Of a DNA stretch of 32,156 nucleotides, positions 344 to 17,923 are shown one piece after another. Within the stretch, counting starts at the first letter, position 1. Every line of letters starts with the position of its first letter. The notes beneath the pieces were generated by a model. The model did no database searches, was not told where the DNA came from, and saw only the letters and a program-made list of their open reading frames with translations. A program made the translations under genes and the position numbers. The stretch spans positions 1-32,156 of the forward strand of contig JAFQLU010000069.1 in the NCBI GenBank assembly GCA_017396465.1. The letters run 5' to 3'. This stretch comes from Clostridia bacterium (GTDB taxonomy: Bacteria > Bacillota > Clostridia > UBA1381 > UBA9506).

Positions 344-425
344 TAATATGTATATTTATAATTGCCAATCATAGTCTCTGTGGAATTGGAGCGAATGCTC
401 TAAAATGATTGTAGGAGGGAAAAAG

Positions 426-995
426 ATGAGAAGTCCGGTTTACCGTGATGTGGAAGAGGCAATGCTGGAAAAAGTGTATCACTATCTGCTGGAAAACGGT
501 CTGGATCACTTTTCTATGCGCGAATTCTGCAAAAGCACGGGAATATCTATGGGTAGCACATATTACTGGTTTGAAAACAAAGAGCAAATGATTGCCGAGG
601 CGGCAGAATACGGTCTTTCCAAATTGGCGGAACGGATTTTCGGATACGTTTTTACGCAAATGGATCAGCTGGATGAATTTTTTGCAAATATTTTAGAGCA
701 GATGGAATATGCAAAACCGCAGTTTCGTTTGCTGGCTCGTCTGGCAACCAGCCCCGTATACGGCGCGCGTATCAAACAAGCGGCAACGCTTCTGGATGCA
801 TCTTATGTCAAATATATCAGCATGTTTGCGGAGCAGGCGGGATGTGATGCCGAAGAGGTTGCGCCACTGGTATATCTGTGCGTTTCTGTTTTGGTCGACT
901 ATGCTATCTGGGAAGATAAAGAGGTTTCGCAGATGCAGTGCGACTATATCTGTAAACAGTTGAAAAAAATCTGTGTCGGCAAAAAGGAGCAGTAA
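426..995 (+). CDS. TetR/AcrR-family transcriptional regulator
   Basis: This is a 189-residue DNA-binding regulator. The N-terminal third carries a typical TetR helix-turn-helix: a helix around HYLLENG, then FSMREFCKSTGISMGSTYYWFENKEQ's recognition helix (the GSTYYWF segment corresponds to the usual G-x-x-Y-x-H/Y-F pattern). The remaining residues look like an all-helical ligand-binding and dimerisation domain. The ATG at 426 is chosen over the in-frame ATG at 405 because AGGAGG at 413-418 sits 7 bases upstream of it. Proteins of this family usually repress an adjacent gene and release DNA on binding a small ligand. Candidate targets are its own promoter and the surface gene at 1128, with no terminator seen in between. 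The ligand is unknown. Confidence 0.85.
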   Translation: MRSPVYRDVEEAMLEKVYHYLLENGLDHFSMREFCKSTGISMGSTYYWFENKEQMIAEAAEYGLSKLAERIFGYVFTQMDQLDEFFANILEQMEYAKPQFRLLARLATSPVYGARIKQAATLLDASYVKYISMFAEQAGCDAEEVAPLVYLCVSVLVDYAIWEDKEVSQMQCDYICKQLKKICVGKKEQ

Positions 996-1127: not shown

Positions 1128-3239
1128 ATGAACAAAACATGGAAGAAAAGAGTTGGAGCGTTTATGCTTGCAGCTCTGTTTGTGCTTGTTGGTGCAATAC
1201 CGGTTTTTGCCGAAAAAGCTTCAGCACCTATCGAGCTGATTCTGGAGGATGTGACAGACTCTGATGCAACCGTACTTTCCGGTCAGGCGAAACTGAAGGT
1301 CAGCGTGAAAGGCACGACAGAAAGTGTGTACGGCGTGCAGACCACCTTATCGTTCTTTGGGGACCTGTCCTATTCATCCGTACAGTTCCTGCAGGGGGAA
1401 AATGATCCTGCAAGTGGTTCGTTCCAGGTGTCCCAGAATCCTGCGGACGTGAATCTTGACATGACAGTTGCACCTTCTATCTTAAGCAAGAATGCATTTG
1501 ATTTTTCTGACAAGACTGATTTATTCATTCTGACATTTACAGGTGAGCCCGGTGAAACCATTGAAGTGACCTTGGATGAATCCGAAACCAAGTCTTACTT
1601 TACAGTAGACCACCTCACCGAGGGCAGATACATCGGCGTGGATGCAGAAACCGAAACCATTAGCTTAACCGCAAGCTCCAAGCAGGGTGGCAGCATTGAT
1701 GCGACAATCCGTCTGGAAATGGATGCGCTGCAGGATATCGGCTTTAAGTCGAACTTTGACGGTAGTGAGCCCTACTATAAGGATCCCGGCGTTTGCGTGG
1801 AAATCATCGGAGAAGAAAACAGCACTAACTTAAAACTGTTTTTAAGCGATTTGCATCGCGTGACTTCTGCAAATGTTCCTACATTTGAAATCAGAACACA
1901 GCTTCTGGCTGAAAGCAACTATACTGTAAAGGTAACCGGTATGGGTTTTGCGCCTTACACAGTAGAGGGTGTGGATTTTGCAACGGTTCTCACTATCGGA
2001 AACACGAAGTTTGTTCCCGGTGATGTGGACGGCAATGAAGTGGTGGACGGATACGATAAAGCGCTGTTTAATCTGATTGTGGAATCCGAAGAATATAACG
2101 AAGCGGCAGACTTTAACCGCGACGGTAAAGTGAATAACAATGACTTCAGCATCATTGCTCACCTGCCCGATGTGGAAATCGGCGGCGATGATAACGAGGA
2201 AGAAGATCCCGAAAAGCCGGTTCCCGCAAAAATGGAAAAACCGAATTTATCCGCAACAACAGATGAAATTGAGGTAGAATGGGAACTGCTGGACGAGGAT
2301 GAAGATACACCCTATCCCGTAACCGGCTACGAAATACATTACGGCACCACAGCTGAAATGAAGAATGTAGAAGAAGTTGACGATCCCGAAGAAACCAAAT
2401 TTACATTGGAAGATTTAGAGGAAGACACAAAATACTATGTATGTATTGCCGCTGTAAATGAAAACGGCAGAGGTGAATTCTCCAAAACTGCAAGCATCTC
2501 CACAAAAGAGACCTCCTCCGGCGGTGGCGGCGGTGGTGGCACCGGTGGAGGTGGAGGCGGTGGTGGTGCCGGCGGTGGCGGCGGCAGCACAGGTGATAGC
2601 CGTCCTTCCGCAGGTACAGGTACAGGCACCGGAACAGGAACAGGTAGTGGTAGTGGCGATGTTGCCGTAGACCCCGTAGACCCCAAAGAACCTTTCACAG
2701 ATTTAGGCAACTACAGCTGGGCAAAAGAATCTATCTACAGCTTAAAGGATGCAGGCATCATCAGCGGTACCAGCGAAACCACATATTCTCCCGCGGCAAA
2801 CATCAAGCGCGGCGACTTTATTCTGATTCTGTCCAGAATGCTGAAACTGGAGGACGCTTTCACAGAAAACTTTGCAGACGTTCCCGAATCCAGCTACTAT
2901 TATAACGCAATCGGTGCCGCAAAAGTGGCAGGTATTGCAAAGGGTGACAGTGAAACCAACACCTTCAGACCGGAAGATACCATCACAAGACAGGATTTAA
3001 TCACTCTGGCATACCGTGCATTCTTAGATGCAGGCTATATCGAGGCAACAGAAGACGTTTCTGCGTTAGATCAGTTCGCGGATAAAGACCTGATTGCAGG
3101 TTATGCGGCAGAAGCAATGGCTTCTATGGTTTCTGCAGGCATCATCAAGGGTAGTGACGGCAACGTAAACCCCTTAGGCAACGCAACAAGAGCAGAAGTT
3201 GCAGTGATGTGTGCAAGACTGGCGGCATTGATGAAATAA
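1128..3239 (+). CDS. SLH-anchored surface protein with cohesin-like, dockerin-like and FN3 modules
   Basis: This is a 703-residue exported protein. A signal peptide covers residues 1-28, with a likely cut after VFA. A cohesin-like beta domain follows at about 33-185 (typical start IELILEDVT with the strand pattern LKVSV...VYGVQTTLSF). Next is a beta-rich module at about 195-293. A dockerin-like pair of calcium loops sits at about 297-346 (DVDGNEVVDGYD and DFNRDGKVNNND). An FN3 domain spans about 368-462. A glycine-rich and TG/SG linker covers 464-510. Three SLH repeats run from about 523 to the C-terminus (FTDLG..WAKESI, FADVPESSYYYNAI, FADKDLIAGYAAEAM). SLH repeats bind pyruvylated secondary cell wall polymer, so the protein should be displayed on the wall. 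AGGAGGA lies just before the ATG. The cohesin call rests on pattern only; the SLH and dockerin calls are firmer. Confidence 0.85.
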   Translation: MNKTWKKRVGAFMLAALFVLVGAIPVFAEKASAPIELILEDVTDSDATVLSGQAKLKVSVKGTTESVYGVQTTLSFFGDLSYSSVQFLQGENDPASGSFQVSQNPADVNLDMTVAPSILSKNAFDFSDKTDLFILTFTGEPGETIEVTLDESETKSYFTVDHLTEGRYIGVDAETETISLTASSKQGGSIDATIRLEMDALQDIGFKSNFDGSEPYYKDPGVCVEIIGEENSTNLKLFLSDLHRVTSANVPTFEIRTQLLAESNYTVKVTGMGFAPYTVEGVDFATVLTIGNTKFVPGDVDGNEVVDGYDKALFNLIVESEEYNEAADFNRDGKVNNNDFSIIAHLPDVEIGGDDNEEEDPEKPVPAKMEKPNLSATTDEIEVEWELLDEDEDTPYPVTGYEIHYGTTAEMKNVEEVDDPEETKFTLEDLEEDTKYYVCIAAVNENGRGEFSKTASISTKETSSGGGGGGGTGGGGGGGGAGGGGGSTGDSRPSAGTGTGTGTGTGSGSGDVAVDPVDPKEPFTDLGNYSWAKESIYSLKDAGIISGTSETTYSPAANIKRGDFILILSRMLKLEDAFTENFADVPESSYYYNAIGAAKVAGIAKGDSETNTFRPEDTITRQDLITLAYRAFLDAGYIEATEDVSALDQFADKDLIAGYAAEAMASMVSAGIIKGSDGNVNPLGNATRAEVAVMCARLAALMK
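2517..2658 (+). repeat. Low-complexity Gly and TG/SG coding repeat
   Basis: A GGN-rich run (about 2519-2588) encodes poly-glycine. It is followed by an imperfect ACAGG/ACCGG repeat (about 2614-2658) encoding TG and SG pairs. It forms the flexible linker between the FN3 and SLH parts of the surface protein. The codons vary between repeats, so the tract is not a pure microsatellite. Confidence 0.8.
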
Positions 3240-3257
3240 TCAAAAATAATAAAACCC

Positions 3258-3291
3258 GGCGGAGGGGAACCTCTCCCTTCCGCCCTCTTTC
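3258..3291 (+). terminator. GC-rich hairpin after the SLH gene
   Basis: GGCGGAGGGGA (3258-3268) pairs with TCCCTTCCGCC (3274-3284) with one G-U pair, and the loop is ACCTC. The tail CTCTTTC is only weakly T-rich, so termination may be partial. Confidence 0.65.
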
Positions 3292-3325
3292 AAAGCGCAT
3301 AAGTTATTGCTTGCTTGTGCGTTTT
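3292..3325 (+). terminator. Second hairpin terminator in the same gap
   Basis: AAAGCGCATAAG (3292-3303) pairs with CTTGTGCGTTTT (3314-3325) over 12 positions with two G-U pairs and a 10-base loop. The right arm itself ends in TTTT. It stands in tandem with the hairpin at 3258, 55 bases before the next start codon. Confidence 0.6.
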
Positions 3326-3380
3326 GCAGGGGGGATTTTTATGAATCTACCAAAAAAATTATGAAAAGGAGTATAAAAAC

Positions 3381-6194
3381 ATGAAAGCAAAGAAATTTTT
3401 GTCTGCTATTTTAGCAGGCGTGATGCTGCTTATGACAGCATCGTTCACAGTTTTTGCGGCTGACCCGGATATTTATGAGGTTAACAGCGAAACAACATTT
3501 GCGAGTGTCATTCAAAACGCAAAAGATACCAATGGCGATGGCGTTATCACATACGCAATCAGCGGCAAAGCATCTATTGCCGGCGGTTCTATTGTGACGG
3601 ACAGTACCGTTACAACCATAAACATTGTTGGTAAAACAGCGGATGCAGAGCTTCACATCAGCGGTAATAACGCCGGCGCGTATATTATGGTGCCGAACCT
3701 TCATGTGAATGTATCAGACATGACTCTTACCAAGGTTGTAGGAAATTATATTGGGGATGCCGGCTACAGAAACCGCTTCTTCAGTATCTCTCATGGTGAT
3801 ACAGTAACTTATAAAAACTGTAAGTTCCCTCTTGGCGCATGTGCATCCACCAACAGTGGCACAACACGTCTGACCACATTTGATACCTGCGTTTTCAGCG
3901 CAACCGACTATTATAGCTTATGGGTGTATGATGGAAACGTTGATATCAAGAATTGTACATTTGACGGCGTAAGAGGTATCAAGGTTTATGCGGAAGATGA
4001 AACCTATCCTATCATCACAAAAATCGAAGGAACAAAATTTGTTGGTTTAACACAAAAACCAGCTATTGTTTCTACTCAGCCGGGTAAAATTGCTGTGACA
4101 AACAGCACATTCACAGATTGTACATACGGCGTTTTGGCAAATGAATCTTACAACGGCAGTTTGGCAGAAGTTACAATTGATGGCAAAACTCCCGAATATG
4201 TTGCCACCGTAAATGGTGCTTTGTATACCAATATGGAATACGCAAAGGCTGAAGCTGATGAAGCAAATGCAGAAGTGAAAGTTCCTGTTGCAAAAATTGG
4301 TAATAAATACTATACATCTTTAGACGAAGCTCTGGCTGATGCAGAAGCATCCGGTGCAACCGAAACTACAATCGGATTACTGCAGGATGTTACAAAAACA
4401 ACGAAATTTAATGGTAAAGTAGCAAACTTAACCATCGACTTAAACGGAAAAACATTATATATTGCAGCGTCGGATAACTATGCGAAGGGTTATCTGAAAT
4501 TTATGAATGGTACAGTAGATATCACCGGTGTTGTGACCGAAGGCGATTCTATTTTCCATATGCTGGGCGGTGCAGATATTCTGTTTGAAAATGCAAAGCT
4601 GGTTGGTGAAAACTTCGTAAGCGCATTCGCGGTAATCAACTTAGCATCCGTAGGCTCTGATGCCACATTCACAAATTCTACTGTTGCATTAAAGGATGAG
4701 TTATCTACCAATGGCGGATTTGTGAAATCCGGTTCTACCGTAGACAACATTGTTACCTTTGATAACACCGATGTATCCCTTACAAATCTGCTGAAAGCAT
4801 TTGTAAATAATGATATCCGCATCGAAAACGGTTCTGATGTTACCGTAATAGGCGGCGAATATGGCTTCAATGTTCCGAAACTGACTGTAAGCGACTCCAA
4901 ACTGTATGTAAGCGGTTCTTTAGAACCCGGTATCAAAGTGGGGAATAATCCAATCATCATTTCCGGTGACTCTGATGTATATGTAGAAAATATTGCACAT
5001 AGAGAAGCAACAAATACCGGTGCGATTGAAGTAAAAGATACAGCATCTTTGGTTGCTGAAACCATTTCTTCTGCTCTTTTAACCGGCATGACAGTTGCAG
5101 ACACAGCTACCGTTGTTTCGAAAGCAGACAAAATTTCTGTTGAATTCGTCGAAGTAGAAGACGATACAGATGAATACTTAGATAACGCACTTTGGAACAT
5201 CGTTTTAAAGGGTGCAAATGCAGAAACAATCAACAGATTAAACTCTGCAGAGCTGACATTCGCATTGGCTGACGGCGAAGGCGACATGGCGTACGAAATC
5301 ATCGAAAGCAACAGCCAGATTGATATCAATCCTGTGAACAACTCCAAAGACCACTATGAATTCCATTTCAAGGGTAAAGAAGGCGTTGTGGACACAGCAA
5401 ATGAAATCGTAATCGGTCAGGTGGCATTTGAAGGCTACGGCGATGTAGACTTCAGCGTGGATGCAAACGGAACAAATGTTGTTCATGCGACCACAATTTC
5501 CGACAATATCGTTGATACCTTCCGCCCCGGCACAAGCACAACTGCAAAGGTTGGTATCCTGGATATTTCTGCTGTAATCGATTCTGCAATCGAAACAGTA
5601 AAAGAAAACTTAGAAATTCACATTGCATTCCCCAACGCAGTAAACAAGAATGCATACACATATCAGGATATGACCGTAACCGTTGAAAACGACGATTTAG
5701 GTCAGCTGTATGTAGTGAAACTGGGCGAAAACAATGCGGCAAACATCACTGCAACACCTGTTGCAGAAGCTGCAGGCATTGCTTGCACAGTAGATAGCGA
5801 CGGTTGCTATGTTGTAACCTTCACAGACATTTTAGTACAGCACAATTCCTACGAAATCACCGTAGAGGGTGCAGGCTACAGAACAGCTCGCTACACCGTT
5901 CGTATGACAGAAGACAAAACTGTGAACTTCTGGAACAACGTAAAAGATGCGGATGCTTATATGGAAGTATCCAAGAGTGAAAGCGTAGCTCCTGCTAAAC
6001 TGAACTATTTAGCAGGTGATATCGTAAAAGATAACAAGATTAACGTATATGACTTGTCTGCAGTTGTATCCTACTTCGGTGAAGCAGGATTATCTGCAAC
6101 AAAGAACCCCGAATATGCAAAATATGACTTGAACCGTGACGGCTTCATTGATTCTAAAGACGTTGCAATCGTTCTGGTTTCCTGGGGTAAATAA
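3381..6194 (+). CDS. Secreted beta-helix-like protein with C-terminal dockerin
   Basis: This is a 937-residue exported protein. A signal peptide covers about residues 1-27, with a cut near VFAA. Most of residues 30-560 is a run of short beta strands with repeated Asn, Gly and aromatic turns, as in right-handed parallel beta-helix proteins. One part (YTSLDEALADA, then IDLNGKTL) is a pattern common in gut Firmicute surface proteins. A cohesin-like region may follow at about 590-715, then an Ig-like module to about 850. A dockerin covers 879-937, with calcium loops DIVKDNKINVYD and DLNRDGFIDSKD. The first loop has Val at a position usually Asp or Asn. No catalytic residues could be placed, so a polysaccharide lyase role is only possible. 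AAGGAG precedes the ATG. It lies directly downstream of the SLH/cohesin-like gene, which suggests a shared surface assembly. Confidence 0.8.
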   Translation: MKAKKFLSAILAGVMLLMTASFTVFAADPDIYEVNSETTFASVIQNAKDTNGDGVITYAISGKASIAGGSIVTDSTVTTINIVGKTADAELHISGNNAGAYIMVPNLHVNVSDMTLTKVVGNYIGDAGYRNRFFSISHGDTVTYKNCKFPLGACASTNSGTTRLTTFDTCVFSATDYYSLWVYDGNVDIKNCTFDGVRGIKVYAEDETYPIITKIEGTKFVGLTQKPAIVSTQPGKIAVTNSTFTDCTYGVLANESYNGSLAEVTIDGKTPEYVATVNGALYTNMEYAKAEADEANAEVKVPVAKIGNKYYTSLDEALADAEASGATETTIGLLQDVTKTTKFNGKVANLTIDLNGKTLYIAASDNYAKGYLKFMNGTVDITGVVTEGDSIFHMLGGADILFENAKLVGENFVSAFAVINLASVGSDATFTNSTVALKDELSTNGGFVKSGSTVDNIVTFDNTDVSLTNLLKAFVNNDIRIENGSDVTVIGGEYGFNVPKLTVSDSKLYVSGSLEPGIKVGNNPIIISGDSDVYVENIAHREATNTGAIEVKDTASLVAETISSALLTGMTVADTATVVSKADKISVEFVEVEDDTDEYLDNALWNIVLKGANAETINRLNSAELTFALADGEGDMAYEIIESNSQIDINPVNNSKDHYEFHFKGKEGVVDTANEIVIGQVAFEGYGDVDFSVDANGTNVVHATTISDNIVDTFRPGTSTTAKVGILDISAVIDSAIETVKENLEIHIAFPNAVNKNAYTYQDMTVTVENDDLGQLYVVKLGENNAANITATPVAEAAGIACTVDSDGCYVVTFTDILVQHNSYEITVEGAGYRTARYTVRMTEDKTVNFWNNVKDADAYMEVSKSESVAPAKLNYLAGDIVKDNKINVYDLSAVVSYFGEAGLSATKNPEYAKYDLNRDGFIDSKDVAIVLVSWGK

Positions 6195-9786: not shown

Positions 9787-11235
9787 GTGTTACAAAAATT
9801 GTTTGGAGATAAAAAATTCTGGGGTTCCATGCTGACGCTGGCAATCCCCATTGCAATACAGAATTTGCTGACCAGCTCGTTCACTTTGATTGACACCTTG
9901 ATGGTGGGGCAGCTGGGTGATGTCAGCCTTGCGGCGGTAGGTATGGCGGGGCAGTGGAGCTGGCTTCTGAATATGGTGATTTTCGGCATCTGCTCCGGCG
10001 CGTCTGTGTTCTTTGCCCAGTATTTTGGTGACGGAAACAAAAAAGGGTTTTTGCATACTTACGGATTAGCACTTTTTTCCGGCCTTGCCGTGGCAATTGT
10101 GTTTCTTTTGGTCGGTTTTTTCGCTCCCGGGGCGGTCATCAGCATTTTTAACCGTGACCCTGCTGTTCTGGAAGCAGGTATCAGCTATTTAAAGATTGCG
10201 GTATTTTCCTATCCTGCCATTATGGTGAACATGCTGATTAACATTGTGCTTCGCTCCACAGAACGCGTGAAGCTTCCAATGGTTGTTGCTTTTTTCACCA
10301 CTATCTTAAACGCATTTTTAGACTACGGTCTTATTTTTGGCGCGTTCGGTTTGCCGGAACTGGGTATCCGCGGTGCGGCAATTGCAACGGTGATTTCTGC
10401 ATGGTCCGGTCCTGTGATTATCTTTGTGGTAACGGCATTTCTGCAGGACGATATTTTCTTTGCACCCATCCGTGAAATGCTGGGGTTTAACAAAGAATTT
10501 GTAAAAGATTTTTTCAAACGCGCTCTTCCCGTGGTGTTTAATGAAACCTTGTGGGGCTTGGGCACGGTGGTATATAACATCATTTTCGGTAATCTGGGTT
10601 ATGAATACACAGCGGCTATTTCTATTTTAAGAACCTTTGAAAATATCGCCTTCGCTTTCTTTGTAGGCTTAAACAATGCGGCATGCGTTATGATTGGTCA
10701 GGATATCGGAAGTGGCGAAACGAAAGAAGGCGTGAATAAAGCGGCGCGTTTTATGGTGCTTGTACCTGCGGCAGGCCTGTTTGCAGGTGCGCTGATTGCT
10801 TTGTTCCGTGAACAGCTAATCGGCATATTCAATATGGGTGGCACAATTTCCCGAACAACGCTTGAAGCGGCGCGGGGGATTATGCTGGTGTATGCGATAG
10901 AGCTTGCAGTGCGAAATATTCCCTATGTTGCCATTGTTGGCGTGTTCCGCTCCGGCGGCGATACGAAAAAAGGTATGAAATATGACCTTTTAAGCTTGTG
11001 GTGCATTTCTGTTCCGGCAACAATCCTTGCGGCGTTTGTTCTGAAGCTTCCTTTTGTGGCAGTATTTGCCTGCAGCTATATCTGCGAAGATTACCTGAAA
11101 TCATTTTTATGTATCAAATATTTTAGAACAAGAAGATGGATTCAGCCGGTTACGGAAAACGGCAAGAAGGGCTTAGAAAGCTATCTTCTGGAAGAGAAGG
11201 AGAGAAAAGAACATGGTAAACGAAAGACTGCGTAA
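9787..11235 (+). CDS. MATE-family multidrug/cation antiporter
   Basis: This is a 482-residue integral membrane protein with about twelve hydrophobic segments in two similar halves. The first half opens with the family-like AIPIAIQNLLTSSFTLIDTLMVG and LAAVGMAGQ. The second half repeats the pattern from about RALPVVFNETLWGLG. MATE proteins export drugs, toxic cations or metabolites in exchange for sodium ions or protons. The start is GTG, with TTGGAGG about 6 bases upstream. The last 23 bases overlap the esterase gene in another frame, so the two are almost certainly co-transcribed. The substrate cannot be predicted, but the operon partners suggest export or detoxification linked to a plant-derived compound. 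Confidence 0.93.
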   Translation: MLQKLFGDKKFWGSMLTLAIPIAIQNLLTSSFTLIDTLMVGQLGDVSLAAVGMAGQWSWLLNMVIFGICSGASVFFAQYFGDGNKKGFLHTYGLALFSGLAVAIVFLLVGFFAPGAVISIFNRDPAVLEAGISYLKIAVFSYPAIMVNMLINIVLRSTERVKLPMVVAFFTTILNAFLDYGLIFGAFGLPELGIRGAAIATVISAWSGPVIIFVVTAFLQDDIFFAPIREMLGFNKEFVKDFFKRALPVVFNETLWGLGTVVYNIIFGNLGYEYTAAISILRTFENIAFAFFVGLNNAACVMIGQDIGSGETKEGVNKAARFMVLVPAAGLFAGALIALFREQLIGIFNMGGTISRTTLEAARGIMLVYAIELAVRNIPYVAIVGVFRSGGDTKKGMKYDLLSLWCISVPATILAAFVLKLPFVAVFACSYICEDYLKSFLCIKYFRTRRWIQPVTENGKKGLESYLLEEKERKEHGKRKTA

Positions 11236-12274
11236 GATTACCCCTCCTGCATTTCCCTTTGGAAATACAATGGAGGAAACAAAACAGAATATGCTGGATG
11301 TTTTACTGACGGAAGAATACGGCTTTCTTCCCAATCGGGAAACGGCACTTTCCTGGGAAGTGAATAAAGAGGAACCCACATTTGCGGCAGGAAAGGCAAC
11401 GCTTTACCGCATGACAATGCATGCGACATTCCCTACGGGAACCTTTTCCTTTCCCTTTGTTTCCGTGATTCCCAAGAACAAAGGAAACATTCCGTTTTTT
11501 GTGCATATCAATTTCCGCCCGGATGTGCCGGACAAATATCAGCCCACAGAAGAGCTGGTGGACAACGGTTATGCAGTAATTTCCTTCTGCCATAAAGATG
11601 TAACTTCGGATGACGGAGACTTTGGAAACGGCGTGGCACCTTTTATTTTAGGTGCAACCGAACAGCAAACAGACACAGACTGCGGCAAAATTGCCATGTG
11701 GTCCTGGGCGGCATCCAAGATCATGGACTATGCCGAAACCATTCCGGAGCTGGATAAATCAAGAGCAACAGTAGTGGGTCACTCCCGTCTTGGAAAAACT
11801 GCGCTTCTGACCGGTGCGCAGGATTCCCGATTTTCTTTGGTGATTTCCAACGATTCCGGCTGCAGCGGCGCGGCGGTAACCCGCGGCAAGCAGGGCGAGA
11901 CAATTGAAGTTATCACACGAGTGTTTCCCTATTGGTTCTGTAGAAACTATCGGAAATACAGCGGAAAACACGAAGCGCTTCCTTTTGATCAGCATTGGCT
12001 GATTGCGGCAAGCTTACCTGCACGCATCTGCATCGGTAGTGCAGAAGAAGATTTATGGGCAGACCCCGAAGCGGAATTTTTATCCTGCGTGCTGGCGGAA
12101 GAGTATGGAAAGCATTTTGGCTTAAAGGTATTTCCCGAAGTGACAGAATTTCCCAAAACGGGCGACCGCTTTGCAGGAAATATGGCGTGCTATCATGTTC
12201 GCTCCGGCTGTCACTTTTTCAGCAGAACAGACTGGCTTTCCTACATGGCATTTGAGAAGATGGGCAGAGAATGA
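11213..12274 (+). CDS. CE15-like glucuronoyl esterase, no signal peptide
   Basis: This is a 353-residue alpha/beta hydrolase. The nucleophile elbow GHSRLGKTAL places Ser191 and Arg192 as in carbohydrate esterase family 15. Downstream blocks also fit that family: VFPYWFCRNYRKY, LPFDQHWLIA, the acidic residue region near WADPEAEF (Asp284), and the catalytic His334 in SGCHFFSRTDW. CE15 enzymes cleave ester bonds between glucuronate on xylan and lignin alcohols. Most described bacterial members are exported, but this one starts MVNERLRKI without a signal peptide and should be cytoplasmic. AAGGAG precedes the ATG. The start overlaps the MATE gene by 23 bases and the stop overlaps the next ATG by 4 bases. 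It may act on imported esters rather than on intact plant wall. Confidence 0.85.
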   Translation: MVNERLRKITPPAFPFGNTMEETKQNMLDVLLTEEYGFLPNRETALSWEVNKEEPTFAAGKATLYRMTMHATFPTGTFSFPFVSVIPKNKGNIPFFVHINFRPDVPDKYQPTEELVDNGYAVISFCHKDVTSDDGDFGNGVAPFILGATEQQTDTDCGKIAMWSWAASKIMDYAETIPELDKSRATVVGHSRLGKTALLTGAQDSRFSLVISNDSGCSGAAVTRGKQGETIEVITRVFPYWFCRNYRKYSGKHEALPFDQHWLIAASLPARICIGSAEEDLWADPEAEFLSCVLAEEYGKHFGLKVFPEVTEFPKTGDRFAGNMACYHVRSGCHFFSRTDWLSYMAFEKMGRE

Positions 12275-12673: not shown

Positions 12674-12688
12674 AAGAAATGGAGCTTG

Positions 12689-12720
12689 AAAGCCTTGTCG
12701 GAAGCGATAAGGCTTTTTAT
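12689..12720 (+). terminator. Leader terminator (attenuator) before pyrC
   Basis: AAAGCCTTGTCG (12689-12700) pairs with CGATAAGGCTTT (12705-12716) with one G-U pair. The tetraloop is GAAG and the T-rich tail runs TTTTTATTTTTA. It stands between a very strong promoter and pyrC, so operon expression must depend on read-through. That fits attenuation by pyrimidine supply. Confidence 0.85.
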
Positions 12721-12790
12721 TTTTACTTTCAGAAAGCTTTGGATTTATCTGTACGCGTATCCGAAAAAGCAAAGAAAGGCAGGAAACACT

Positions 12791-14005
12791 GTGACATATT
12801 TGCTAAAGGGTGTAACCGCCGGGGTAAGCGGCGAGAAGAACCCCGTAATTATCGGCGAGAAACCAACAGAAATTCAAATATTAGACATGGAGGGCTGTGT
12901 AGCTCTGCCGGCGTTTTGCGATGTGCATGTGCATTTCAGAGAACCCGGCTTTTCCTATAAGGAAACCATGAAAAGCGGCATGGCTGCTGCGGCACACGGG
13001 GGCTATACCGATGTGTGCACCATGCCCAACGTCAGTCCTGCTCCCGACACAAAGGCGCATCTGGAAGAACAGCTGAAGTGCTTGGGGCATAATCCGAAAA
13101 TCCGTGTTCTGCCTTATGGCACCATCACCATGGAACGGGCAGGAATGGTGCTTTCGGATATGGAAGGCATGAAAGACTGCGCCATTGCCTTTTCTGATGA
13201 CGGAAGCGGCATTCAGGAAGAAAGCCTTATGCTTGCAGCAATGGAAGAAGCGAAAAGATTAGGCAAAATCATTTGTGCTCATTGTGAGGACAATGCACTT
13301 CTGCGTGGCGGCTATATTCACGACGGCGAATATGCCAAAGCTAACGGTCACCGCGGCATCTGCTCCGAAAGTGAATTCGGGCAGATTGCAAGAGATTTGG
13401 AGCTGGTGAAAAAAACGGGCTGTGCTTATCATGTGTGCCACATTTCCACCAAGGAAAGTGTGGAGCTGATTCGCAAAGCAAAAGCGGAAGGGCTGGATGT
13501 GACCTGCGAAACCGGTCCTCATTATCTGGTGCTTTCCGATAAAGACCTGCAGGAGGACGGAAGATTCAAAATGAACCCGCCTCTTCGGTCGGAAGAAGAT
13601 AAAAAGGCACTCATTGAGGGCATCTTAGACGGCACCATCGACATGATTGCCACAGACCATGCACCGCACAGCGCAGAGGAAAAAGGCAAGGGCCTGGAAA
13701 AAAGCGCCATGGGTGTGGTTGGTTTAGAAACGGCGTTTGCCGTGATGTATACGCATTTCGTAAAAACCGGTATTCTGACGATGGAAAAGCTGGTGGAGCT
13801 GATGAGCATCAACCCCAGAAAGCGGTTCGGAATCGAAATGCACGCAGGTGATGTTGCCGTATTCAATATAAAAGACGAATACACCGTTGATCCCAAGGAC
13901 TTTAAGAGCATGGGCAAAAGCTCACCCTTTACGGGGATGCAGGTGTTCGGCAGATGCGTGGCAACCTTCTGCAACGGAAAAATGGTTTGGAGGGAACAGG
14001 CTTGA
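12791..14005 (+). CDS. pyrC: Dihydroorotase, type I
   Basis: The enzyme closes carbamoyl-aspartate to dihydroorotate, the third step of UMP synthesis. The 404-residue form from GTG at 12791 fits the family length. The upstream in-frame ATG at 12686 would put the leader terminator inside the coding region and adds a non-homologous segment. AGGAAA sits about 6 bases upstream of the GTG. Visible metal-site motifs are DVHVHFREPG (His46, His48), FSDDGSG with the Asp that bridges metals in type I enzymes, ICAHCED, CHISTKES, and IATDHAPH. NPPLRSEEDK is the typical substrate-loop segment. It is the first gene of the pyr operon and its stop overlaps the TTG start of pyrK by 4 bases. Confidence 0.95.
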   Translation: MTYLLKGVTAGVSGEKNPVIIGEKPTEIQILDMEGCVALPAFCDVHVHFREPGFSYKETMKSGMAAAAHGGYTDVCTMPNVSPAPDTKAHLEEQLKCLGHNPKIRVLPYGTITMERAGMVLSDMEGMKDCAIAFSDDGSGIQEESLMLAAMEEAKRLGKIICAHCEDNALLRGGYIHDGEYAKANGHRGICSESEFGQIARDLELVKKTGCAYHVCHISTKESVELIRKAKAEGLDVTCETGPHYLVLSDKDLQEDGRFKMNPPLRSEEDKKALIEGILDGTIDMIATDHAPHSAEEKGKGLEKSAMGVVGLETAFAVMYTHFVKTGILTMEKLVELMSINPRKRFGIEMHAGDVAVFNIKDEYTVDPKDFKSMGKSSPFTGMQVFGRCVATFCNGKMVWREQA

Positions 14006-14733
14006 TTCAGACAGTTTACACAATCAAAGAAAATAAACGGCTGACAGAAACCGTTTATAAAATGGTTCTTGCGGGAGATACCTCCTCCTTCACGGCTCCC
14101 GGTCAGTTCATTAATATTAAATTAGACGGATTTTATCTGCGCCGTCCCATCTCGGTTTGCGATTGGGAAGAAAACCTGCTCACCATCGTATATAAGGTGG
14201 TAGGAAAAGGCACAGAGGTGATGGCAGAGCTTAAGGAAGGAACACTTCTGAATTGTTTGGTTGGCTTAGGAAATGGCTTTAACCCCGAAAAGAGCGGAGA
14301 AAAACCACTGTTGATCGGTGGTGGTGTTGGCGTGCCTCCTATGTATGGCTTATGCAAAGAGCTTATCAAGCAGGGCAAAAAGCCGACGGTAATTTTAGGC
14401 TTTAACACCAAAGACGAAATCTTCTTAGAGGATGATTTTAAAGCGCTGGGCGCTGAAGTTTATGTCACCACGGTTGACGGAAGCTACGGCGTGAAAGGCT
14501 TTGTAACAGATGCTATGAAGAATTTAGATTACACATACTTTTACACCTGCGGTCCCATGCCCATGTTCAAAGCAATTGAGAACACGGCGGTGACCTCCGG
14601 TCAGTATAGCTTCGAGGAACGCATGGGATGCGGTTTCGGTGCATGCATGGGTTGTTCCTGCAAAACAAAATATGGTAACAAACGAATCTGCAAAGACGGC
14701 CCCGTATTGGAAAGGGAGGAAATCATATGGTAA
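14002..14733 (+). CDS. pyrK: Dihydroorotate dehydrogenase B, electron-transfer subunit
   Basis: This is a 243-residue flavin/iron-sulfur protein that passes electrons from dihydroorotate oxidation in PyrD to NAD. The FAD-binding motif RRPISV is near residue 50. The nucleotide-binding segment IGGGVGVPPMYGL follows. The [2Fe-2S] ligands lie in the C-terminal cluster CGFGACMGCSC and a later Cys in KRICKDGPVL. The start is TTG at 14002, supported by GGAGGG (13989-13994) 7 bases upstream and by the TTGA overlap with the pyrC stop. The longer frame from 13954 would overlap pyrC further and lacks such a site. The end overlaps pyrD by 7 bases, fitting tight coupling of the two subunits. Confidence 0.95.
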   Translation: MIQTVYTIKENKRLTETVYKMVLAGDTSSFTAPGQFINIKLDGFYLRRPISVCDWEENLLTIVYKVVGKGTEVMAELKEGTLLNCLVGLGNGFNPEKSGEKPLLIGGGVGVPPMYGLCKELIKQGKKPTVILGFNTKDEIFLEDDFKALGAEVYVTTVDGSYGVKGFVTDAMKNLDYTYFYTCGPMPMFKAIENTAVTSGQYSFEERMGCGFGACMGCSCKTKYGNKRICKDGPVLEREEIIW

Positions 14734-15638
14734 ACACAAAAGTAACCTTAAGCGGCATCGAACTGGATAATCCTGTGATTCCTGCCAGCGGCACCTTTGG
14801 CTTTGGCTATGAATTTGCAGAAATTTATGATATCAACGAGTTGGGAACTTTTTCGTTCAAGGGAACTACCAAGGATCCCAGATTCGGAAATCCCACGCCC
14901 AGAATCGCAGAGTGTACTGCCGGCATGATTAACTCTGTCGGTCTGCAGAATCCCGGTGTGGAAAAGGTGATTGAAGAAGAGCTTCCGAAGCTTGCCAAGT
15001 GCTTCCGCAAAAAAGTCATGGCAAATGTTTCGGGTTTTTCGATAGACGAATATGCCTACACCTGCGAAAAACTGGATAAAGAAGATCAGGTTGGCTGGCT
15101 GGAAGTAAATGTGTCCTGCCCCAATGTCCATAACGGCGGCATGAGCTTCGGCACGTCCACAGAAGCAGTAAAAGATGTGGTAAAAGCCGTAAAGAGCGTT
15201 ACCACAAAGCCGGTTTACATGAAGCTTTCGCCCAATGTTACCGACATTGTATCTATCGCAAAGGCGTGCGAGGATGCAGGTGCAGACGGCATCAGCATGA
15301 TTAACACTCTTTTAGGCATGCGCATTGACCTGAAAACCAAAAAGCCGGTTGTGGCAAATAAAATGGGCGGATTTTCCGGCAGTGCCATTCTGCCTGTTGC
15401 GGTTCGCATGGTATATCAGGTATATGAAGCAGTAAAAATCCCCATCATCGGTATGGGCGGTATTACAACGGCGGAGGACGTCATCGAAATGATGCTTGCC
15501 GGTGCAACGGCGGTTCAGGTCGGCGCGGCAAACTTAATTGATCCTTTTGCCAGCAAGAACATCATTGACGATTTGCCCCGCGTAATGAAAAAATACGGTA
15601 TAGAAAAATTAACAGATATCATAGGAGGAGCACACTAA
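14727..15638 (+). CDS. pyrD: Dihydroorotate dehydrogenase B, catalytic subunit (class 1B)
   Basis: This 303-residue FMN TIM-barrel protein oxidises dihydroorotate to orotate using PyrK to reach NAD. Family signatures include [20 protein letters not shown], the catalytic Cys131 in [12 protein letters not shown] (class 1 enzymes use Cys), [10 protein letters not shown], and the FMN-phosphate region [30 protein letters not shown] precedes the ATG. The pyrK neighbour confirms the NAD-linked 1B type rather than the fumarate-linked 1A or membrane class 2. It shares one base with pyrF (TAATG). Confidence 0.97.
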
Positions 15639-16336
15639 TGGGAAAAGACGTTATCATTGCTTGTGACTTTTCAAGCAAAGAACAGGTATTTGCATTTTTA
15701 GACAAGTTTGAAGGCAAGAAACCTTTTGTAAAAATCGGCATGGAGCTGTTTTATGCAGAAGGCCCCGAAATCGTAAGGGAAATCAAAAGAAGAGGACACA
15801 AAATCTTCCTGGATTTAAAACTGCACGATATTCCCAACACAGTTAAAAAATCCATGAATGTGTTATCAAGACTGGATGTTGACATGACAAACCTGCATGC
15901 GGCAGGCACCATTTCCATGATGGAAGCGGCTTTAGAGGGCTTAACCCGTCCCGACGGCACAAGACCTCTGCTCATCGCCGTAACCCAGCTGACCTCCACA
16001 GATCAGCAGCGCATGGAGGATGACCTCTTAATCAAAGAGCCCATCGATAAAGTGGTTATGCACTATGCATCCAATGCGGCAAAAGCAGGACTCGACGGTG
16101 TAGTTTGCTCTCCCTTGGAAGCGGAAAAGGTTCACGAAACCTGCGGCAAAAGCTTCTTAACCGTAACCCCCGGCGTTCGCTTTGCAGACGGCGATATCGG
16201 TGACCAGAAACGCGTTATGACACCAGCAGAAGCAAAGAGAATCGGCTCTGACTATATCGTGGTAGGCAGACCCATTACTGCGGCAGAAGACCCTGTTGCG
16301 GCATATGAACGCTGCATCAACGAATTTGTAGACTAA
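15638..16336 (+). CDS. pyrF: Orotidine 5'-phosphate decarboxylase
   Basis: This 232-residue enzyme carries out the last UMP step, decarboxylation of OMP. The catalytic segment [11 protein letters not shown] is intact (Asp59, Lys61, Asp64). The early ACDFSS and VKIGMELF blocks, VTPGVR near 175 and the phosphate-binding VVGRPIT near 207 are also present. The length is normal for the short bacterial class. GGAGGAG lies just inside the end of pyrD, and the start shares one base with the pyrD stop. Confidence 0.97.
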
Positions 16337-16357
16337 AGACAGAAAGGATAGATTACG

Positions 16358-16990
16358 ATGAAAAGAAACATTGCACATGATTTACTGAAAATTCAAGCAG
16401 TTTTTTTAAGACCTGAGGAGCCTTTCACATGGGCAAGTGGTATCAAAAGTCCCGTGTATTGCGATAACAGACTAACGCTTACTGCACCCGAAGTGCGTAA
16501 CGATATTGAAAACGGCTTGTCTGAACTTGTAAAAATGCATTTCCCCGAAGCAGAAGTGCTGATGGGAACATCCACAGCGGGTATCGCACATGCGGCAATC
16601 TGCGGACACCTCTTAGATATGCCTATGGGCTATGTACGCTCCGGCAGCAAAGACCACGGCAGACAGAACCGCATTGAGGGCAAGCTCCTTCCCGGTCAGA
16701 AGGTTGTTGTTGTGGAAGACTTAATCTCCACAGGCGGCAGCGTGATTGATGTTGTGGAGGCTCTGCGCGAGGCTGGTGCTGAGGTGTTAGGCGTTGTCAG
16801 CATCTTCACCTACGGCATGCAGAAAGGCTTAGACCGCTTAAAAGAAGCAAACGTTATCAATTACAGCTTAACCGATTTTGACACAGTTTGCCAGATTGCA
16901 GCAGAAACCGGCTACATCAAACCGGAAGATGTAGATAGATTGATTGTATTCCGCAATAACCCCTCCGACGAATCCTGGATTCAGAAATAA
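16358..16990 (+). CDS. pyrE: Orotate phosphoribosyltransferase
   Basis: This 210-residue enzyme transfers ribose 5-phosphate from PRPP to orotate to give OMP. The PRPP-binding motif [13 protein letters not shown] is intact at about 116-128 (Glu120, Asp121). The flexible-loop segment [15 protein letters not shown] carries the basic residues that act in catalysis. It lies 21 bases after pyrF with GAAAGGA as the ribosome binding site. Its place between the decarboxylase and the transcarbamoylase genes matches a full pyr operon. Confidence 0.97.
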
Positions 16991-17008
16991 TCGGAAAGGG
17001 TGAAAGAA

Positions 17009-17923
17009 ATGAATCATTTAATTGATATTCTGCAGCTCACAGAAGCGGAAATTGACGAACTGATTGCAGTTGCGGAGGACATCATCGCAAACCCTGCGAA
17101 ATATGCAGAAAAGTGCCACGGTAAAAAGCTTGCAACGTTGTTTTTTGAGCCCTCCACCCGTACGCGTTTAAGCTTTGAAGCAGCGATGTACGAGCTGGGC
17201 GGTAATGTACTGGGCTTTTCCGAAGCGCAAAGCTCTTCGGCATCCAAGGGGGAAAGCGTGTCCGACACCATCCGCACCGTAGGCTGCTATGCAGATATTA
17301 TCGCAATGCGCCATCCTAAAGAAGGTGCGCCTGTTGTTGCATGCCAGTCTTCCACGGTTCCGATTATCAATGCAGGTGACGGCGGACATAACCATCCCAC
17401 CCAGACGTTGACCGACCTTTTAACCATTCATCGGGAAAAGGGAACATTTTCCGGACTCACCATCGGTCTCTGCGGTGACCTGAAGTTCGGAAGAACGGTG
17501 CATTCCTTAATTTCGGCAATGTCCCGTTATGAAAACGTGAAATTCGTTTTGATTTCTCCGGATGAGCTGAAGGTTCCTGATTATATCATTGAGGATTTCT
17601 TAGAAGCTAATAACATAGAATATGTAGAGACCACCTCTTTGGAAGAGGCTATGCCGGAGCTTGACATTTTATACATGACAAGAGTGCAGAGAGAACGCTT
17701 CTTCAACGAGCAGGATTATATCCGCCTGCGCGACAGCTATATCTTAGATATGGAAAAGCTGAAGGGCGCAAAAAAAGATATGTGCATCCTGCATCCCCTG
17801 CCCAGAGTGAACGAAATCGCGAAAGATGTGGACAACGATCCCCGTGCCTGCTATTTTAAACAGGTATTAAACGGTAAGTTTATTCGCATGGCGCTGATTT
17901 TAAAACTCTTGGAAATAGACTAA
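17009..17923 (+). CDS. pyrB: Aspartate carbamoyltransferase, catalytic subunit
   Basis: This 304-residue enzyme condenses carbamoyl phosphate with aspartate. The carbamoyl phosphate motif [13 protein letters not shown] is at 45-57. It is followed by SSSASKGES, the [15 protein letters not shown] block and the HPLPRVNEI segment near the C-terminus. The ATG at 17009 is chosen because AAAGGGTG lies a suitable distance upstream, whereas the GTG at 17000 overlaps that site. PyrI follows 15 bases downstream, so the enzyme is probably the allosteric dodecamer type. No carbamoyl phosphate synthase gene is in the window. Confidence 0.97.

Follow-up and report, generated by a model that had tools for sequence, protein, structure and literature searches.

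A putative SLH-anchored cohesin–dockerin display system for mostly non-enzymatic cargo in gut Clostridia

Two neighbouring genes, one encoding an SLH protein and the other a secreted protein that ends in a dockerin, raise the question of whether cohesin–dockerin pairing serves to display proteins on a bacterial surface, and which module of which protein would bind which. Both genes lie on the forward strand of a window of 32,156 nucleotides, the whole stretch of DNA that was analysed, which is one contig of a 1.96 Mb assembly (140 contigs, 54.6% complete). A preliminary description of this DNA had suggested a minimal two-protein assembly, in which a cohesin on the SLH anchor is matched by a dockerin on its neighbour. 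The results presented here are most likely explained by a non-cellulosomal, SLH-based display system, which would be built on the anchoring logic of type II cellulosomes with strongly diverged cohesins.

The anchor gene (1128..3239) encodes a protein of 703 aa, with a signal peptide (recognised by eye), a cohesin, an X module, a dockerin, an Fn3 domain, a Gly-rich linker and three SLH repeats. The divergent cohesin domain (1227..1682, residues about 34-185) is followed by the X module (1689..2009, residues 188-294) and by a dockerin with two Ca-loop repeats (2016..2159, residues 297-344; Pfam E 6e-7). The Fn3 domain is situated at 2253..2495 (residues 376-456; Pfam E 2.9e-13), and the SLH region at 2691..3203 (PF00395 at 2691-2822, 2871-2999 and 3075-3203; Pfam E 1.5e-25). 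The whole genome yielded 77 SLH repeat matches from an assembly that is about half complete, and the envelope of this bacterium appears to be strongly SLH-based.

The neighbouring gene (3381..6194), hereafter the cargo gene, encodes 937 aa, comprising a signal peptide (by eye), a beta-helix-like body, a cohesin, an X module and a dockerin. The N-terminal body (3462..5120) is probably beta-helix-like, given the repeats in its sequence and the Beta_helix, DUF1565, LRR_5 or Pectate_lyase_5 matches (the last below cut-off) of homologues encoded by neighbouring genes at other loci. A divergent cohesin-fold domain (5127..5600, residues about 583-740), an X module resembling CarboxypepD and PEGA domains (5601..5993; weak PEGA and CarboxypepD_reg matches) and a dockerin (6012..6173, residues 878-931; Pfam E 1.4e-8) complete the protein. 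Anchor and cargo dockerins both scored above the cut-off of the type I profile PF00404. The cohesin and the dockerin named in the preliminary description were recovered where it had placed them, but its anatomy was incomplete: the anchor's own dockerin, carried besides its cohesin, and the cargo's own cohesin had been overlooked.

The cohesin assignments rest on predicted structure. An AlphaFold2 model of the anchor triad (cohesin, X module and dockerin), built with 25 sequences, reached a pLDDT of 89.1 and a pTM of 0.80. In the structure search (VIA-align), model residues 8-157, corresponding to protein residues 34-183 (33-185 in the preliminary description), matched 6kge_A with a Z of 13.1 and an rmsd of 2.8 Å over 130 residues, and nearly all top rows were cohesins. 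The cargo triad model was of moderate confidence (pLDDT 71.6); its first domain had the Clostridium perfringens cohesin 2vo8 as best match (Z 10.5), and antibody chains among its Foldseek rows were disregarded as common Ig-like matches. Sequence profiles gave a different result. The Pfam cohesin profile PF00963 matched none of 25 anchor triads and none of 17 cargo triads, even at E<=1, nor any protein of the window's genome, a scaffoldin with several cohesins included; this genome is 54.6% complete and was searched with a profile blind to this type of cohesin. Comparison of the anchor and cargo cohesin-like regions with 30 PF00963 cohesins by hhalign gave 2.8% and 0.9%, respectively, and the two regions gave no signal against each other; all of these comparisons used small alignments. 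The proposed cohesin therefore found no support by HMM and clear support by structure, and the conclusion from the profile search that it is not a cohesin was overruled. Both the anchor N-terminal domain and cargo residues ~583-740 are predicted to adopt a divergent form of the cohesin fold, a nine-stranded jelly-roll sandwich, that is beyond Pfam detection. Regarding the hallmarks of type II cohesins (a crowning helix between strands 6 and 7, and beta-flaps), the anchor model has a helix at 79-85, and type I-like and other cohesins outscored type II cohesins. Of the 95 order genomes, 66 contained Pfam-detectable cohesins, with up to 15 per genome, and cohesin–dockerin systems are widespread in this lineage.

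The remaining two modules of each triad resembled type II X-dockerins. The X-dockerin half of the anchor was closest to 5m0y_B (Z 9.8) and that of the cargo to 5g5d_B (Z 9.0, within a range of 8.5-9.0 for type II X-dockerins), the structural matches of both halves being found among 5m0y_B, 5g5d_B, 5k39_B and 2b59_B. The strong matches of PDB profile searches were to X-dockerin and dockerin chains only, with 2b59_B at E 3e-7 on the dockerin part, and the anchor and cargo were homologous to each other by hhalign in the X module (95.6%) and the dockerin (95.9%). Over the whole triad, the best Foldseek matches were CohI9-X-DocII fragments of Clostridium thermocellum CipA (ScaA), namely, 3kcp_A for the anchor (E 2.8e-13) and 4fl4_C for the cargo (E 3.8e-11). 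The whole-chain rmsd against CipA was 20 Å and 11 Å, respectively, so the match concerns the modules and their order, and not one rigid body.

The pair is not a minimal assembly as had been suggested. The window's genome contained one anchor and six matches to the cargo triad on five contigs, two of these matches being cut by contig ends. Each of the six Pfam dockerins found there belonged to the anchor–cargo system, and the dockerins of five of its cargo proteins shared a mean identity of 94%. In another genome (G038), all 14 Pfam dockerins were cargo dockerins and no Pfam cohesin was found. Across the order, one anchor per genome was detected (two in a single genome), together with 1-23 cargo triads. 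Anchor and cargo were both present in the same five of 20 genomes of the family, and both were missing from the other 15. Strong matches in the 95 order genomes placed the anchor in 12, the cargo in 13 and both in 11, with the two apart in 3 (Fisher p 1.2e-11, in a test that treats related genomes as independent, which they are not). The sole anchor-only genome had its anchor cut by a contig end, and two genomes had cargo with no detected anchor. At least seven genera contained both members with anchor and cargo and members with neither. The association noted earlier between the two genes thus goes beyond chance and recurs in many genera.

A second kind of dockerin repeat was observed in a secreted protein of 258 aa, which by eye also has a carboxypeptidase-regulatory-like region and is encoded in the window's genome (L267:3406-4182, contig C47) and in another genome of the family (L268:3447-4211). 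The Pfam dockerin search did not pick up these repeats, and at both loci the gene lies behind an ORF of ~400 aa whose product has a likely signal sequence. This protein was left out of the system as belonging to another family.

The gene order was also examined beyond the order. A scan of 84,980 species returned 25 anchor loci, nearly all in assemblies of gut Clostridia, plus the isolate Ructibacterium gallinarum. Counting the window, 21 loci had enough sequence; in 16 of them the anchor gene was followed downstream by a cargo gene on its own strand, and the other five had no adjacent cargo. In 11 loci, the window again included, the gene immediately upstream of the anchor gene codes for a TetR-family regulator (405..995 in the window, forward strand); its TetR_N match was 22.3 bits here, against a cut-off of 24 bits, and exceeded the cut-off in three homologues. 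Very large SLH-like proteins of one type, with 'RQVYLHA' near the start, were encoded close downstream of the anchor at two other loci (L101:3173-8122, 1649 aa; L103:7940-13720, 1926 aa), adjoining it in G010 and lying past the cargo gene in G008.

The displayed proteins, as far as their domains indicate, are mostly not enzymes. None of the four cargo proteins scanned in the window's genome had a catalytic domain, and a plain enzymatic cellulosome was not adopted as an explanation; GH48 was found in 0 of 95 order genomes by a search that lacked a working positive control. The N-terminal parts of cargo in relatives included right-handed beta-helix, DUF1565, BspA-type LRR, bacterial Ig-like, YDG and Cthe_2159 carbohydrate-binding domains, and a pectate-lyase-like adhesive domain was matched below its cut-off. 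We infer an adhesive role for these proteins. The cargo of one relative (L274:1-5064) includes a SASA (sialic acid-specific acetylesterase) domain, and the display tag is therefore probably used on an enzyme as well. Because the cargo domains of relatives include this one esterase, the platform is mostly but not wholly non-enzymatic. The display of non-enzymatic cargo, which the preliminary description had considered possible, is in line with these results, with the qualification that it is not exclusive.

Since both partners carry a cohesin, an X module and a dockerin, the anatomy alone does not give the direction of binding. Conservation was compared module by module. For the cargo, 48 triads of five genomes were used; their mean within-genome identity was 0.73 for the dockerin, 0.37 for the X module and 0.31 for the cohesin, and in 289 of 290 pairs the identity of the dockerin was above that of the cohesin. 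Across 15 genomes, the corresponding cargo values were 0.65, 0.35 and 0.25, whereas the cohesin, X module and dockerin of the anchor were equally conserved (0.44, 0.46 and 0.47). The anchor modules served as a control, and their equal conservation means that dockerins are not conserved merely as dockerins. The modules under constraint are thus the anchor cohesin (0.44 vs 0.25 in the cargo) and the cargo dockerin (0.65 vs 0.47 in the anchor).

Co-variation was assessed in the same number of genomes (15) with partial phylogenetic control. With the other anchor modules controlled for, anchor cohesin and cargo dockerin were correlated in their identity matrices (partial r 0.42-0.50, p 0.0025-0.0105), and the anchor cohesin also co-varied with the cargo X module, a pattern that fits type II anchoring. 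Neither control, anchor dockerin vs cargo dockerin or anchor SLH vs cargo dockerin, showed co-variation in these 15 genomes. Conservation and co-variation of the sequences thereby favour a pairing of the anchor cohesin with the cargo X-dockerin. Weak co-variation was also detected between anchor dockerin and cargo cohesin (rank r 0.22-0.30, p 0.007-0.04), and the anchor cohesin co-varied with the cargo cohesin; because of these two signals, a reciprocal or more complex binding network may still operate.

The explanation that we consider probable is a cohesin–dockerin surface display, in which an SLH-anchored divergent cohesin would capture many X-dockerin-tagged, mostly beta-helix proteins; the binding, the partners, the surface location and the adhesive function are all deduced from what was observed, namely, the domain anatomy, the predicted folds, the gene linkage, the co-occurrence, the pattern of conservation and the co-variation. 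The SLH repeats would hold the anchor on the wall, where it would present a single divergent cohesin. A C-terminal cohesin–X–dockerin triad is carried by several secreted proteins, most of them beta-helix or adhesin-like, and its nearly identical X-dockerin may act as an address tag for the anchor cohesin, in the way that the X-dockerin of CipA plugs into type II cohesins on cell-surface anchoring proteins. The cohesin of the cargo itself probably serves for the most part as a spacer or structural module, or may have acquired private partners. The presence of both cohesin and dockerin in every cargo and in the anchor would also allow a fibre. A general, non-cellulosomal display platform of gut Clostridia whose members each carry a complete divergent triad beyond the reach of standard cohesin profiles, and whose subunits may chain head-to-tail on one SLH anchor into a non-covalent surface fibre, is rather unlikely, and the polymer taken by itself, with the dockerin of each cargo binding the cohesin of the next and the fibre ending at the SLH anchor, is slightly more doubtful. 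Cargo cohesin and cargo dockerin do co-vary (partial r 0.33, p 0.01), but modules of the same protein co-vary anyway, and conservation is lowest in the cargo cohesins (0.31 within and 0.25 across genomes), although a joint shared along a fibre should be constrained.

The same low conservation bears on an intramolecular closure, in which each dockerin folds onto the cohesin of its own chain and forms a stable stalk, with no intermolecular assembly. The location of both modules in one chain would allow it, and the high pTM of the anchor model may mean packed modules; we nevertheless judge it improbable, as it explains neither why cargo occurs almost strictly together with a single anchor nor why the cargo dockerin, but not the cargo cohesin, is conserved. 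It is very unlikely that the dockerins are ordinary EF-hand-like stalk modules and that the SLH protein has nothing to do with the cargo, with adjacency reflecting shared regulation only. The usual D/N ligand at position 3 of cargo dockerin loop 1 is indeed missing in about two thirds of sequences, but the Ca ligands of loop 2 and the S at position 10 are invariant, K/R occupies position 11 in 46 of 47 cargo dockerins, and the co-variation and co-occurrence of anchor and cargo and the structural match to type II XDoc also oppose this view.

The anchoring proteins SdbA, Orf2p and OlpB of C. thermocellum are SLH proteins. In type II anchoring, a cohesin on a cell-surface protein is bound by the X-dockerin of the scaffoldin; the dockerin is stabilised by the X module, which can also contact the cohesin (PMC5141474). 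The surface display proposed here would place the X-dockerin on the partner and the cohesin on the anchoring protein in the same way as CipA with SdbA, Orf2p and OlpB (PMC5141474). Unlike the CipA system, the anchor combines one cohesin with an X-dockerin of its own and an Fn3 domain, the triad is on each cargo instead of on one scaffoldin, the cohesins are beyond PF00963, and no recognised cellulase was found among the scanned cargo of the window's genome. C. thermocellum CipB likewise attaches modules of unknown function via a C-terminal X-dockerin (PMC5141474), but is one protein in a cellulosome producer, whereas the cargo here forms a multi-member family with a cohesin before each X module. 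Glycoside hydrolases of C. perfringens also carry cohesin and dockerin on the displayed proteins themselves; those enzymes pair with each other (PMC12997984), in contrast to an SLH anchor with mostly non-enzymatic cargo. The Limousia mucinolysome and other cellulosome-like systems of the gut share the host group (gut Clostridia) and a wall-anchored cohesin protein with many predicted dockerin partners (PMC12997984), but differ in their sortase anchor, multi-cohesin scaffoldins, CAZyme cargo and Pfam-detectable cohesins. Archaeal proteins (Archaeoglobus, ANME) similarly use cohesins and dockerins outside cellulose degradation (PMC9012536), and are not known from that work to form an SLH anchor-plus-cargo operon of this kind. 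A non-exhaustive search of the open-access literature found no prior description of this display system, which is apparently an undescribed variant of cohesin–dockerin anchoring.

If the proposed display is correct, cohesin–dockerin assembly would extend from enzyme complexes to a broad adhesin-like display in gut Clostridia, in which a single socket would accept as many as about twenty tagged proteins. Because its cohesins escape the Pfam profile, the system would go unnoticed in gut surveys that make a Pfam cohesin a requirement, as in PMC12997984. The cultured strain R. gallinarum DSM 107454 has the same anchor–cargo gene pair, which makes the question testable.

Elsewhere in the window, a glucuronyl esterase-like domain is encoded at 11213-12274 (Pfam GCE_fung, E 5e-24) and may belong to a plant-fibre esterase. 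A pyrimidine biosynthesis run occupies 12686-17923, with dihydroorotase-like, dihydroorotate dehydrogenase and Fe-S subunit, OMP decarboxylase, phosphoribosyltransferase and aspartate carbamoyltransferase-like genes.
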